Positions 49,771 through 54,267 of a stretch of 64,000 nucleotides of DNA are shown one piece after another (the first letter of the stretch is position 1; each line of letters starts with the position of its first letter). Position numbers and translations under genes: made by a program. Under the pieces are notes generated by a model, which made no database searches, was not told the DNA's origin, and saw only the letters and a list, made by a program, of their open reading frames with translations. The stretch spans positions 2,232,001 through 2,296,000 of the forward strand of contig NZ_CP139148.1 in assembly GCF_034058155.1 (NCBI RefSeq). The letters are read 5' to 3'. Source of the DNA: Flavobacterium sp. KACC 22761 (GTDB lineage Bacteria; Bacteroidota; Bacteroidia; Flavobacteriales; Flavobacteriaceae).

Positions 49771-49805
49771 CTTCATTTTTTCTTCATTTTGCGAAGGTAA
49801 TTTTG
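49771..49805 (+). promoter_or_regulatory. Promoter with direct-repeat response-regulator box, Asr-like gene 1
   Basis: CTTCAT at 49771-49776 and again at 49782-49787 (period 11 bases) precede TAATTTTG at 49798-49805. The second CTTCAT begins 16 bases before the TA. Exactly the same layout occurs at 52576-52610. Direct repeats of this period are what OmpR/PhoB-type regulators bind. Confidence 0.65.
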
Positions 49806-49847
49806 AAGTGTAAAATAAAAGGTATTAATTTTTAAATTTTAGAAATC

Positions 49848-50045
49848 ATGAGAAATTTATTGATGGTATTAGTAGCAGTTTTAGGTGCAAGCGCAATGGT
49901 TCACGCATTTCCTGCCAAAGGTAAACAAACAGCACCTGTAAAAGAAGTTACAGCAACAAAACAGCCAAAAAACAAAGCTGATAAAAAAACAAAAGCAGTA
50001 AAAACTGAAGCTTCAAAAGAAGAGAAAGCAAAAGTAAAAAAGTAA
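49848..50045 (+). CDS. Small exported Lys/Ala-rich (Asr-like) protein 1
   Basis: The 65 residues have a signal peptide (MRNLLMVLVAVLGASAMVHA) and a disordered tail rich in Lys, Ala, Thr and Pro (KQTAPVKEVTATKQPKNK). It resembles E. coli Asr, the periplasmic acid-shock protein, in layout, though I do not claim homology. The N-terminal sequence is shared with genes at 50096 and 52657. It lies in front of a two-component system and behind a regulator box. Likely periplasmic and induced by that system. Confidence 0.82.
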   Translation: MRNLLMVLVAVLGASAMVHAFPAKGKQTAPVKEVTATKQPKNKADKKTKAVKTEASKEEKAKVKK

Positions 50046-50095
50046 AATAAACATTAAAATAAAATAAAATCAATTAATTAAAAAACTTAGAAATC

Positions 50096-50332
50096 ATGAG
50101 AAATTTATTTATGGCGATCGCCGCAGTTTTAGGAACAAGTGTAATGGTAACAGCAGCTCCAGCTCCAGCTAAAAAAGCTCCTGCAAAAGAAGTTAAAGCA
50201 ACTCCTCAACAAGACCCAAAAGCAACAACTCCAAAAGAGGAAAAAGCAGCTAAACATTCTAAACATCACAACAAAAAAGCAAAATCAACAAAAACTGAAG
50301 CTCCAAAAACAGAAGCTTCAACAATGAAATAA
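50096..50332 (+). CDS. Small exported Lys/Ala/His-rich (Asr-like) protein 2
   Basis: A 78-residue paralogue of the previous gene: the DNA around the start (gaaatcatgagaaattta) is nearly identical, as is the signal peptide (MRNLFMAIAAVLGTSVMVTA). The mature part has PAPAKKAPAKEVKA and a His/Lys stretch (KAAKHSKHHNKKAKS), very like E. coli Asr. It follows gene 1 by 50 bases without its own box, so it is probably read from the same promoter; a terminator at 50411-50442 closes the unit. Confidence 0.82.
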   Translation: MRNLFMAIAAVLGTSVMVTAAPAPAKKAPAKEVKATPQQDPKATTPKEEKAAKHSKHHNKKAKSTKTEAPKTEASTMK

Positions 50333-50410
50333 CAGTTATTGTTTCTGATTTGTTTTCAGATTCATGGTTAGGAAGCAAAACAGGGATAATGGTTATGGAG
50401 AATGCGGTTG

Positions 50411-50442
50411 AAAAAGCTGACGAAGAAATTTGTCGGCTTTTT
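50411..50442 (+). terminator. Terminator after the Asr-like pair
   Basis: aaaaagctgac (50411-50421) pairs with gtcggcttttt (50432-50442), one G-T pair, then T residues. Confidence 0.8.
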
Positions 50443-50524
50443 TTCAATCGTTAATTTTTTTAATAATAGGCGTCGGGATTTTTTAAAATTGCTTAAATTT
50501 AATTGCGCTTAATAGCTACAGATT

Positions 50525-51199
50525 ATGAATATTTTAATTGTTGAAGACAATAAGGAACTTGCCGTCGAAGTTTATGATTTTTTGTGCAATGCAGGTTATA
50601 TATGTAAAATAACGCATACTTGCGATGAAGCACTTGAAGAAGTGGCTGGCAATGATTTTGACGCGATGCTTCTTGATTTAGGATTGCCAGACGGAGACGG
50701 TTTTGAGGTTTTGAAAGCAGTACGAAAAACACAGTCAAAAATGGCGGTCATTGTTTTGACGGCTCGTGGTGAATTAGACGACAGAATAAACGGTCTGCAT
50801 TTAGGTGCCGATGATTATTTGACAAAACCTTTTGCACTGACAGAACTCAGTGCGAGATTGTTTGCCGTGATTCGCAGAATTCATGGTTTCACCTTGAATA
50901 ATTTAAGCATTCATGGATTTTTGTTGCAGCTTCAAGATTATAAAGTTAGCTATAATGAAGTGCCAATTAGTTTGACCAAAAAAGAGTTTGACATTTTTCA
51001 ATATTTGGTTTTGAATAAAAATCGAGTGATTACAAGACTGCAATTGACAGAACATATTTGGGGAGATATTCTAGAGATCAATTCTGATTCTAATTTTATT
51101 GATGTTCACGTTCGAAATCTTCGAAAAAAATTAGATAAACATACCACAATAGATTGGTTTGAAACGGTTAGAAATGTCGGTTATCGAATCAACGAATAA
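50525..51199 (+). CDS. OmpR/PhoB family response regulator
   Basis: The 224-residue regulator has a receiver domain (phospho-acceptor D51 in LLDLGLPDGDGF; KPFA switch Lys) and a winged-helix DNA-binding domain (about 130-222, LTKKEFDIFQYLVLNKNRVI, VHVRNLRKKLDK, VRNVGYRI). OmpR-type regulators bind direct repeats with an 11-base period, matching the boxes in front of the neighbouring Asr-like genes. The kinase gene starts 11 bases after its stop. Confidence 0.95.
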   Translation: MNILIVEDNKELAVEVYDFLCNAGYICKITHTCDEALEEVAGNDFDAMLLDLGLPDGDGFEVLKAVRKTQSKMAVIVLTARGELDDRINGLHLGADDYLTKPFALTELSARLFAVIRRIHGFTLNNLSIHGFLLQLQDYKVSYNEVPISLTKKEFDIFQYLVLNKNRVITRLQLTEHIWGDILEINSDSNFIDVHVRNLRKKLDKHTTIDWFETVRNVGYRINE

Positions 51200-51210
51200 A
51201 AGATTAATTT

Positions 51211-52548
51211 GTGAAGATAAAACACCAATTGGCTATTTTTAATGCACTGACACGTTTGTTGGTGATTTTGATTTTATGGTTGATGTTGCCCATATTGGTA
51301 GAAAATGTGGTTTATAGGCATATCAACAACGGCTTGGTTGAAAAAAAGAAAAAATTCATTGATCATTTGAATAAAAAAGAAATCGATGATTTTATTCAGA
51401 ATGCCGATGATTCAACCGAAACCTATTCTCAATTTTCGACACTGCACAGCGAATTTTTGGTACTGTCTAAAATTCCAATAAAAGATAATGAGAAAAAGAC
51501 TTTTTTCAATAATGAATACCGAATTATTGAAGGCGAAGAAAATGAATATCGAATTCTGCAATATCATTTTACTTATGAAAATCAAGGGTATCAACTCGAA
51601 ATTGGTAGCAGTTTAAGCGAAGTAAACGATTTGACCTTTATTATCCGATTCTTTATTATTATTGTTTTGGTGGTTATTCTGCTCGTTACTTTTTTGGCAG
51701 ATACCGTTTATATCGAATATCTTTTAAAACCGTTTTATAAAATTATCGATACAAAAATAAAACGTGTCAATGAGCCAGAAGGTTTTGATCATACTCCAAT
51801 AAAAGCAAATTCTAGAGATTTTAGAGAACTAGATTTGGTGTTGAACCAAATGATGGACCGAATTACGGAACTTTTTAAGAAAGAAAAACAATTCATTTCA
51901 AATGTTTCACATGAATTGCTTACGCCAATTGCATTGCTGAAAAGTAAATTCGAAAATTTATTACAAAATGAATCTTTAGATGATAATGCCGTTGATAAAA
52001 TAGTAGGCTCGCTGAAGACATTAGACATGCTGAAAAAAATAATTAATAATTTGTTGCTGATTTCCCGAATTGAAAACAATCAATATGAGGCAAACGAAGA
52101 GATTAATTTTTATGAAATTGTCAATGACTTGCAGGAAGATTTAGAAGATCGAATTGAAGATCGAGAAATTGAGTTTGTAAATAAAATGGAGCATGATTAT
52201 GTTTTTAAAGGAAACAAAACGCTCATTCATATTTTGGTTTATAATTTGGTTACAAATGCTATAAAATACAATCGACCAAACGGAAAAATTATTGCCGAAG
52301 ATGGTTTTGAAAAAGGACATTATTTTATTTCTATAAAAGATACAGGTCTTGGAATGAGTGAGGCACATATCGAAAAAATATTTAACCGATTTGCAAGAAT
52401 CAGCTCTGATCAGGACGGGCAAGGTTTAGGCCTCGCAATTGCCGAAAGTATTGCTTCTTTTCATCATATTGAAATCAAAGTAGAGTCAAAAATTAACGTC
52501 GGAACAACATTCACCTTAATTGTTCCGGAGCCTCTAAAACATAATTAA
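51211..52548 (+). CDS. Sensor histidine kinase
   Basis: The 445-residue partner kinase has two membrane helices (about 10-30 and 143-166) enclosing a periplasmic sensor of about 110 residues, a HAMP-like linker, then H-box FISNVSHELLTPIALLKSK, N-box LVYNLVTNAIKYN, and G boxes DTGLGM and GQGLGLAIAES. The start is a GTG. The sensor domain is charged and unfamiliar; its ligand cannot be predicted. Confidence 0.94.
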   Translation: MKIKHQLAIFNALTRLLVILILWLMLPILVENVVYRHINNGLVEKKKKFIDHLNKKEIDDFIQNADDSTETYSQFSTLHSEFLVLSKIPIKDNEKKTFFNNEYRIIEGEENEYRILQYHFTYENQGYQLEIGSSLSEVNDLTFIIRFFIIIVLVVILLVTFLADTVYIEYLLKPFYKIIDTKIKRVNEPEGFDHTPIKANSRDFRELDLVLNQMMDRITELFKKEKQFISNVSHELLTPIALLKSKFENLLQNESLDDNAVDKIVGSLKTLDMLKKIINNLLLISRIENNQYEANEEINFYEIVNDLQEDLEDRIEDREIEFVNKMEHDYVFKGNKTLIHILVYNLVTNAIKYNRPNGKIIAEDGFEKGHYFISIKDTGLGMSEAHIEKIFNRFARISSDQDGQGLGLAIAESIASFHHIEIKVESKINVGTTFTLIVPEPLKHN

Positions 52549-52575
52549 AAGTTAATTTTTTCGGAATGGTTTAAT

Positions 52576-52610
52576 CTTCATTTTGTCTTCATTTAGTGAT
52601 TCTATCTTTG
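52576..52610 (+). promoter_or_regulatory. Promoter with direct-repeat response-regulator box, Asr-like gene 3
   Basis: CTTCAT at 52576-52581 and 52587-52592 (period 11) with TATCTTTG at 52603-52610. The distance from the second CTTCAT to the -7 element is 16 bases, identical to the box at 49771. Confidence 0.65.
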
Positions 52611-52656
52611 AGGTATAATAATAGAAGTAATAAACAAATCAGTAAAATTTTTAATT

Positions 52657-52848
52657 ATGAAAAAAATAGTAATGCTTGCAGTAGCTGTTCTAGGAACAGT
52701 GGCAATGGTAAATGCTCAAACAACTCCAACTCAAGCTAAAACAGCTCCAGCAAAAGAAGCTAAAGCTCCAGCAAAAGAGAAAAAAGCAGACAAAAAAGCT
52801 AAAAAAGCAGAGGCAGCTAAGCCGGAGACAGCAAAAACTCAAAAATAA
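52657..52848 (+). CDS. Small exported Lys/Ala-rich (Asr-like) protein 3
   Basis: The 63 residues have a signal peptide (MKKIVMLAVAVLGTVAMVNA) and a repetitive cationic tail of PAKEAKAP and EKKADKKAKKAE type. The AVLG-xxx-MV-x-A signal core is shared with the two genes upstream of the two-component system. It carries its own copy of the regulator box and a terminator after it, so it is a separate transcription unit of the same regulon. Confidence 0.82.
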   Translation: MKKIVMLAVAVLGTVAMVNAQTTPTQAKTAPAKEAKAPAKEKKADKKAKKAEAAKPETAKTQK

Positions 52849-52915
52849 AAAAATATAAGTTTGCCTTGGCAGGCTTTGTGTGGATTATAAAAGGTTTTAA
52901 AAAATTTGGTAGAGA

Positions 52916-52947
52916 AAAAAGCTGGTGGAGAAATCTACCAGCTTTTT
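52916..52947 (+). terminator. Terminator after Asr-like gene 3
   Basis: aaaaagctggt (52916-52926) pairs with accagcttttt (52937-52947). Confidence 0.82.
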
Positions 52948-53031: not shown

Positions 53032-54267
53032 ATGATCCTTCGTTTTGTAATTCTGTGTGCCCTTTTTCTGCTTATTGAATTTTATTCCTACCAAGCCTTT
53101 CGTACTTTAATAAAAACGAGATGGATTTTAATAAGCTACCAGATAATAAGTTTCTTGCTTTTAGCATTTATCATATATTCTTTTACTCAGTTTGACCGCT
53201 CAGTAGGGCAAACCAAGCAAACCATGTTTACAATGGGGCTAATGTTATTGGTTTATGTTCCAAAAATCGTTCTTACTTTAGTAATGTTTGGTGAAGACAT
53301 TTTTAGAATTGGTGCAAGCCTTTTGAATTATTTCATGTATAATGCACCTAGAAAAGAAATAATGCCAGATCGAAGAAAATTCATTAGCCAAATTGCTTTA
53401 GGTTTGGCAGCTGTGCCTTTTTTGTCTTTGATTTACGGAATTTTTGAAGGAAAATATAATTTCAAAGTAATCAAACAGACTGTCTTTTTTCCAGATTTGC
53501 CAGATGCTTTTGATGGATTTAGAATTACACAAATTTCAGATGTTCATAGTGGCAGTTTTGATAATCCCGAAAAGATAAATTACGCCATCGATTTGATCAA
53601 TGAACAAGAGGCTGATATGATTTTGTTTACGGGTGATATCGTAAATACACATGCAAAAGAAATGCATCCGTGGTTGGATACTTTTAGCCGAATCAAAGAT
53701 TATAAGTATGGAAAATTTTCTGTTTTAGGAAATCACGATTATGGCGAATATGTGACTTGGCCATCTGAAAAAGACAAGGAAGAAAATTTTCAAGAAATCA
53801 AAAAACTTTACGGCCAAATTGGTTTTAAATTGATGCTGAACGAGCATACGTATATTCAGAAAGGCGATGATAAAATCGCTTTGATTGGAGTGGAGAACTG
53901 GGGAGTTAATTTTAAAAAGGCTGGAGATTTAAATAAAGCCTCTGAAAATGTTGCTAAAGAAGATTTTAAAGTTTTAATGAGCCACGATCCAAGTCATTGG
54001 GATGCCGAAATTAAAGATCATCCTAAGAACTTTCATTTGACATTGGCAGGACATACACACGGAATGCAGTTTGGAATTGAGATTCCGGGTTATTTTAAAT
54101 GGAGTTTAGCACAATATATTTACAAACAATGGGCAGGTTTGTACGAAACTGCCGGAAGATACGTTTATGTTAACCGTGGATTTGGTTTTCATGCTTATCC
54201 AGGACGAGTTGGAATTATGCCTGAAATAACAGTGATTGAACTAAAAAAGGGCAAGAATGTGGCTTAA
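53032..54267 (+). CDS. Membrane-anchored metallophosphoesterase
   Basis: The 411 residues start with three to four membrane helices (about 1-95), then a further hydrophobic stretch (RRKFISQIALGLAAVPFLS) and a calcineurin-like phosphoesterase domain (about 160-400) with all metal motifs: ISDVHSG, TGDIVN, LGNHDYGEY and LAGHTHGMQFG. It resembles YaeI-type enzymes acting on lipid or cell-wall phosphates. TACTTTTG at 53008-53015 is the promoter element. Confidence 0.92.
   Translation: MILRFVILCALFLLIEFYSYQAFRTLIKTRWILISYQIISFLLLAFIIYSFTQFDRSVGQTKQTMFTMGLMLLVYVPKIVLTLVMFGEDIFRIGASLLNYFMYNAPRKEIMPDRRKFISQIALGLAAVPFLSLIYGIFEGKYNFKVIKQTVFFPDLPDAFDGFRITQISDVHSGSFDNPEKINYAIDLINEQEADMILFTGDIVNTHAKEMHPWLDTFSRIKDYKYGKFSVLGNHDYGEYVTWPSEKDKEENFQEIKKLYGQIGFKLMLNEHTYIQKGDDKIALIGVENWGVNFKKAGDLNKASENVAKEDFKVLMSHDPSHWDAEIKDHPKNFHLTLAGHTHGMQFGIEIPGYFKWSLAQYIYKQWAGLYETAGRYVYVNRGFGFHAYPGRVGIMPEITVIELKKGKNVA

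Follow-up and report, generated by a model that had tools for sequence, protein, structure and literature searches.

A Flavobacterium two-component locus predicted to control small exported-type lysine-rich proteins through a shared promoter element

The window analysed here is a stretch of 64,000 nucleotides (nt) from the 5.04 Mb chromosome of Flavobacterium sp. KACC 22761 (NZ_CP139148.1, positions 2,232,001 to 2,296,000). In it, the genes of an OmpR-type response regulator and its sensor histidine kinase lie amid three genes encoding small, exported-type lysine-rich proteins, named A, B and C. A link between the regulator and the small genes is strongly supported by comparative evidence, including a direct repeat found at a fixed distance from the -7 box before A and before C. 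On balance, we favour a compact regulon, in which the regulator would bind the repeat and switch on one to three exported polycations guarding the envelope against acid or cationic stress. A first-pass annotation, made from the sequence alone, had described the two-component genes amid three genes for proteins of 63-78 amino acids (aa) with signal-like starts. All five open reading frames (ORFs) were found at the same coordinates in the window sequence and the ORF list, and the signal-like segments and Pfam domains were confirmed.

Locus layout and promoter element

The features of the locus are given below in window coordinates.

49771..49789, forward strand: predicted regulator box 1, direct repeat CTTCATTT-TTT-CTTCATTT (exact match)
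49798..49805, forward strand: -7 box TAATTTTG, exactly 8 nt past box 1 (sequence; agrees with the Flavobacterium johnsoniae consensus TAnnTTTG, PMC6847099)
49848..50045, forward strand: gene of protein A, small exported-type Lys-rich protein, 65 aa (ORF; orthologue pN/pS 0.33)
50096..50332, forward strand: gene of protein B, small exported-type Lys-rich protein with a His/Lys stretch, 78 aa (ORF; orthologue pN/pS 0.40)
50411..50443, forward strand: terminator-like hairpin between B and the regulator gene, 11 pairs, 10-nt loop, T run (read by eye; the computed hairpin list, with loops of up to 8 nt, omits it)
50525..51199, forward strand: OmpR/PhoB-type response regulator, 224 aa (PF00072, 88 bits; PF00486, 78.8 bits)
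51211..52548, forward strand: sensor histidine kinase, 445 aa, GTG start (PF00512, PF02518)
52576..52594, forward strand: predicted regulator box 2, CTTCATTT-TGT-CTTCATTT (exact match)
52603..52610, forward strand: -7 box TATCTTTG, exactly 8 nt past box 2 (sequence)
52657..52848, forward strand: gene of protein C, small exported-type Lys-rich protein, 63 aa (ORF; orthologue pN/pS 0.39)
52916..52947, forward strand: intrinsic-terminator-like hairpin 3' of C, 14 pairs (hairpin list)

The element preceding A and C, which the first-pass annotation overlooked, consists of CTTCATTT-N3-CTTCATTT, 8 nt and TAnnTTTG. Boxes 1 and 2 are the sole exact copies of the repeat in the genome, as found by searching both the whole genome and the window. 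TAnnTTTG is the Flavobacterium -7 element, located at positions -12 to -5 (PMC6847099; also PMC9723704), which places the repeat at roughly -39 to -21. This position and the period of 11 bp are as expected for an OmpR-family activator presumed to occupy the site of the -33 element, and the regulator likely binds this CTTCAT-N5-CTTCAT repeat. The gene of B has no exact box of its own and starts after a gap of 50 nt behind A; the two likely share one transcript. The GTG start of the kinase gene lies 11 nt past the regulator stop codon.

Within the genus, 150 Flavobacterium genomes were sampled and kinase presence was called at E ≤ 1e-60, by which 40 genomes (about one quarter) carry the kinase. 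An exact search of these 40 with CTTCATTTNNNCTTCATTT-N(6-9)-TAnnTTTG yielded 52 matches in 39 genomes. The spacing was 8 nt in all 52, with 6-9 nt permitted, and 51 of them are located at this locus. The reversed pattern gave no match in the same 40 genomes, and about 0.0014 exact matches are expected from a simple base-composition model. Among the 110 kinase-minus genomes the exact element was found in none. Near the kinase, the element is present within one mismatch at all 40 loci (exact at 39). With up to three mismatches, 77 promoter elements were counted in the 40 loci, 73 of which lead a small Lys-rich gene (40 the downstream and 33 the upstream one), two the regulator gene and two a PepSY-like protein. 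The upstream small gene is thus headed by the element in 33 of the 40 loci, including that of the window; at locus L042 an exact upstream repeat stands 9 nt from the -7 box, one base further, and is not among the 77 sites. A regulator-type direct repeat hence marks the small-gene promoters, bearing out the link between regulator and small proteins drawn in the first-pass annotation. Since this common promoter element is nearly absent elsewhere in the genomes, the pair likely switches the small proteins on.

The sole exact element outside the locus, in genome G094, precedes mprF (PF09924, PF03706), followed by a gene with a VirJ domain (PF06057). A large regulon was considered and rejected: the box alone with up to two mismatches has 33 sites in the genome of strain KACC 22761, against 25 for the reversed pattern, and single near-matches in this genome are for that reason not evidence. 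Three-mismatch lists that include the -7 box are not free of chance sites either, the reversed pattern matching 0-3 times per genome and strand. Of 20 off-locus stretches picked from such a list, six lead a PepSY-like gene and eight assorted genes, three lie inside longer frames and three have no frame placed behind them. The PepSY-like label denotes a match to PF11396 below its cut-off. For this gene, 42 matches in 31 genomes were listed and 30 loci examined; a site within three mismatches was found in nine of these, two of them at the two-component locus itself, and for none of the 30 in the reversed control; because the copies are orthologous, these sites represent a few events at most.

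One PepSY-like exported-type protein, encoded at G000:C1:4704563-4705033, has orthologues, and the near-match element accompanies the gene in part of the genus. In G000 it sits behind a pair reading like a LytTR-type sensor and regulator, a label given without a profile search. A three-mismatch element with a poor second half was seen in five genomes (locus L158 in G006, and G136, G057, G121 and G079), and at L158 it is followed by a gene of a Fur-type-looking regulator, likewise labelled without a profile search. This site could belong to another regulator. In the part of the window neighbours scanned with Pfam, a phosphoesterase and a thioredoxin were recognised. The gene at 53032-54267 encodes a YaeI/LpxG-like phosphoesterase scoring below both model cut-offs, and all seven named Flavobacterium loci have, at this position behind the locus, a gene of 411-413 aa whose start is similar.

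Distribution within and beyond Flavobacterium

The first-pass annotation had staked its reading on conservation of the small genes beside the regulator in related genomes. Within the genus they proved conserved: all 40 kinase-bearing Flavobacterium genomes have a small gene behind the kinase, and 34 of them also one before the regulator, coding for a Lys-rich protein that begins with a signal-like segment. A profile of the small proteins matched all 40 at E ≤ 4.8e-8 and one of the 110 kinase-minus genomes at the same level; in another 13 kinase-minus genomes the matches were weaker (E 1.6e-7 to 9.9e-5), and several of them fall within frames of some 700 aa. The 40 loci hold 89 small genes, with one copy in six loci, two in 19 and three in 15. 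The triplication emphasised in the first-pass annotation is thus genuine here and shared by 15 of the 40 loci, within a range of one to three. In orthologues of the close clade, the ratio of nonsynonymous to synonymous polymorphism (pN/pS) was 0.39 for the downstream gene (n=22), 0.33 for the first upstream gene (n=25) and 0.40 for the second (n=15). Given these values and the recurrence in all 40 genomes, the small ORFs behave as genes.

In a draw from the family (397 genomes, 237 genera), the kinase was detected at E ≤ 1e-60 in Flavobacterium only (two genomes), while a profile search of the class recovered relatives in 47 of 395 genomes and 21 of 196 genera, counting Flavobacterium itself. 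For the count outside the genus, all 46 out-of-genus loci of the class search were combined with ten loci from Pedobacter, Mucilaginibacter and Flavihumibacter (L224-L233). One of the 56 was too short, and the two sets may include the same species twice; seven Flavobacterium and 63 more distant kinases among the 80 kinase loci of the other set were left out of this count. A small cationic exported-type gene lies within 250 nt past the kinase stop codon in 18 of the 55 assessable loci, the repeat CTTCA[TC]-N5-CTTCA[TC] is found there in 14, and both are found in 11 (Fisher p 6e-5 for the association, uncorrected for kinship). Neither accompanies any of 20 further kinases encoded by strain KACC 22761, chosen by hand from 33 other matches. 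In three Pedobacter loci with gene and repeat (L225, L226, L230), the start of the repeat falls between 7 nt upstream and 7 nt downstream of the kinase gene end. A lipoprotein-like or unrelated gene follows the kinase in other out-of-genus loci.

Mature sequences of the small proteins align poorly across families; position, signal-like start and charge are kept. In a FastTree phylogeny of the kinases (support values uninspected), loci with the small gene are scattered across several clades, and this scatter fits an old arrangement with repeated loss; gain is also possible. Judged from these sequences, an apparently self-contained two-component regulon for exported-type polycations recurs across several families of the class Bacteroidia. 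The arrangement behind the "Bacteroidota analogue" of the first-pass annotation is accordingly real, and confinement to Flavobacterium does not hold.

In five out-of-genus loci (L305, L312, L313, L319 and L336), the small protein behind the kinase contains cysteine, in stretches such as KCCVRK, NPRCIKRVG and VKCVPGC. These proteins possibly form a separate branch.

Proteins of the locus and related systems

Proteins A, B and C carry the signal-like segments AVLGASAMVHA, AVLGTSVMVTA and AVLGTVAMVNA, respectively, and B in addition a KHSKHHNKK stretch. Past residue 20, the 89 genus proteins consist of 30% Lys and 20% Ala, with a pI of 9.8-11.8 and a net charge of +5 to +14. Searches of the small proteins against Pfam and NCBIfam returned weak matches, none above the cut-off among the matches listed, and one relative of protein C is named "Acid-shock protein" in UniRef. 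With the Asr model NF033636 (cut-off 50 bits), none of 28 small proteins reached the cut-off and two matched at E ≤ 1 (best E 0.021); protein C scored 13.9 bits. Membership in the Asr family was rejected on this basis, in keeping with the first-pass view of an analogue that arose independently or diverged beyond recognition. The small proteins are predicted to be exported, and an Asr-like function is proposed for them.

A similar in-frame extension of 16 residues (approximately KSQIHENKKNKLQNLS) follows the start codon of small genes at differing positions and in different species, namely the upstream genes of L063 (the same gene in L282) and L038 and the downstream genes of L043, L074 and L075. 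The ATG of these genes stays 38-47 nt from the -7 box. The extension was seen in five distinct copies and no more in 2.0 Mb of sequence. Units resembling PLKKDGTPDKRFKE are repeated in an unrelated small exported-type protein, encoded at L397:1119-1343 (G133).

Response_reg and Trans_reg_C of the regulator and HisKA and HATPase_c of the kinase all score above the Pfam cut-offs. The regulator is assigned to the OmpR/PhoB family by its receiver and winged-helix domains, with PF00072 and PF00486 above the gathering score; its best NCBIfam model is PmrA (NF007928), at 178.2 bits below the cut-off of 330. The nearest NCBIfam model of the kinase is PorY (NF052314; 258.2 and 257.7 bits), and the kinase is the most PorY-like one of the genome. 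Its closest relative in the protein collection besides itself is from Flavobacterium mesophilum (98%). A periplasmic sensor domain is predicted at about residues 31-146, on the basis of a model of that segment. A fold search with the whole kinase gave matches covering the cytoplasmic part alone, i.e. an ordinary kinase core.

The closest parallel in design is E. coli RstAB with Asr, in which an OmpR-family system reading a tandem-repeat box governs a small basic disordered protein described as periplasmic (PMC10746267, PMC4117788, PMC11135836). In E. coli, the activation of asr by RstA is acid-driven (PMC11135836), and PMC10746267 describes Asr as a chaperone of intrinsically disordered nature. 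In contrast to E. coli, where the repeats are TACA and RstA also drives csgD and other genes, the repeats here are CTTCAT, the exact boxes are almost all at the locus itself, and the small genes flank the regulator in one to three copies. PmrA- and PhoB-type regulators have the same domain architecture as the regulator, and the head-to-tail binding of PhoB and PmrA (PMC4117788) is the mode that a direct repeat would call for; unlike with PmrA, no PmrA-type lipid A genes are among the exact-element targets identified here. The kinase differs from PorY in that its adjoining partner is of OmpR type and not PorX-like, and in its patchy occurrence in the genus. A literature search, thin in its coverage of subscription journals, found no paper on the locus or the box. 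Compared with RstA-asr and PorY, the predicted system is new in the near confinement of exact boxes to regulator-flanking genes, the fixed promoter spacing and the spread over several Bacteroidia families. New, too, as far as sequence models tell, are outputs without a convincing Pfam or NCBIfam family, the single UniRef name aside.

Possible roles of the small proteins

In the compact regulon that we favour, the kinase would perceive a stimulus through its predicted periplasmic domain and phosphorylate the regulator. A regulator dimer at about -39 to -21 would stand in for the weak -33 element of Bacteroidota and bring RNA polymerase to TAnnTTTG, turning on one to three tiny Lys-rich proteins. 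The mature polycations may then serve in the periplasm as a disordered chaperone or a charge shield, in the manner of Asr in E. coli, while standing outside the Asr family. As for purpose, protection against acid or cationic stress by such a polycation, acting in Asr-like fashion, is considered most likely, with about even confidence. Of the stimuli named in the first-pass annotation, envelope, acid or cationic stress is hinted at by the exact element before mprF in one genome, and no support was found for phosphate. The mprF and VirJ-domain pair of G094 has homologous functions to MprF/LpiA - AcvB/AtvA operons, which confer tolerance of acid and cationic peptides, and the rhizobial lpiA-atvA operon is induced by acid and makes cells more resistant to polymyxin at low pH (PMC5936775). 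The G094 pair lies outside the two-component locus.

Several observations weigh against this reading. Among the out-of-genus relatives, 37 of 55 have no such small gene behind the kinase. If the gene must lie no more than 250 nt and the repeat no more than 150 nt from the stop codon of the kinase gene, 39 of the 40 genus loci qualify, and the kinase-minus genome G138 has a lone small gene with neither kinase nor element beside it. The co-occurrence counts are not independent events, because the genomes are related. The site before mprF is present in one of nine genomes with an mprF above the cut-off and missing in the other eight (gene start taken as the first ATG of the longest frame); mprF was thus rejected as a general target, and the envelope-charge theme goes back to this one genome. 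Finally, the composition of the small proteins alone also fits feedback, adhesion or antimicrobial roles.

A feedback role, in which the exported polycations, by binding the acidic sensor domain, dampen or enhance the activity of the kinase, so that the regulon is mostly self-control, appears rather unlikely. It would agree with exact-element targets that are nearly all flanking genes, with the element before the regulator gene in two loci, and with the charge of kinase residues 34-142, which is net negative (-3 to -11) in 39 of 40 orthologues and 0 in the remaining one, versus +5 to +14 in the small proteins. Acidic sensor domains are common, however, and the charge match is therefore a weak argument; the mature proteins vary in length and repeats in a way not expected of a specific ligand, and some relatives retain the kinase without any such small gene. 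Released or surface-bound cationic peptides, directed against neighbours as antimicrobials or towards anionic polymers and surfaces (adhesion, extracellular DNA), are unlikely. The Lys/Ala/Pro-rich part, some 40-60 aa long and preceded by a signal-like start, and the multiple copies in 34 of 40 loci would suit this role. Most amphipathic antimicrobial peptides are richer in hydrophobic residues than the small proteins, in which these are scarce past residue 20 (Leu 0.5%, Ile 0.6%, Phe 0.7%), and the phosphoesterase and thioredoxin among the neighbours scanned are not immunity or secretion genes.

The KHHK-type stretches of protein B and many upstream paralogues, together with a regulator match to the heavy-metal regulator model TIGR01387 (166 bits, under the cut-off of 279), could indicate a metal-responsive or metal-binding system in which His/Lys stretches buffer cations. 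This is improbable: His accounts for just 2.6% past position 20 (0-4 per protein), Cys occurs in none of the 89 genus proteins, and no metal transporter is among the exact-element targets identified (small genes, regulator, PepSY-like gene, mprF). Even more remote is a flavobacterial PorY with the locus as part of type IX secretion control. PorY is the best model for the kinase; the score is nevertheless below the 350-bit cut-off, by which PorY and type IX control membership was rejected, the kinase is absent from 110 of the 150 genus genomes, and PMC10951265 (gingivalis) also speaks against it.

The compact regulon might also be part of something broader, an old and unnamed envelope-charge module of Bacteroidia. 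Its dedicated output would be fast-evolving exported polycations, joined in some species by lysinylated lipids via mprF. The acidic sensor domain would in turn sense the polycations, and in this way the cell would set the net charge of its own periplasm. This extension is speculative, and we consider it rather doubtful.

To our knowledge, few two-component regulons of Bacteroidota have been mapped. At this locus, the sequence shows the kinase and regulator as well as the box, its promoter spacing and the outputs in dozens of species, and the whole chain is for that reason testable with one reporter and one knock-out. If the favoured reading is true, it would represent an Asr-like answer to acid or cationic stress in another phylum, through sequences that family models do not link to Asr; small genes covered by no Pfam or NCBIfam model here would also gain a likely function. 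The box may serve as a genome-wide handle on further targets, such as the mprF and PepSY-like genes.

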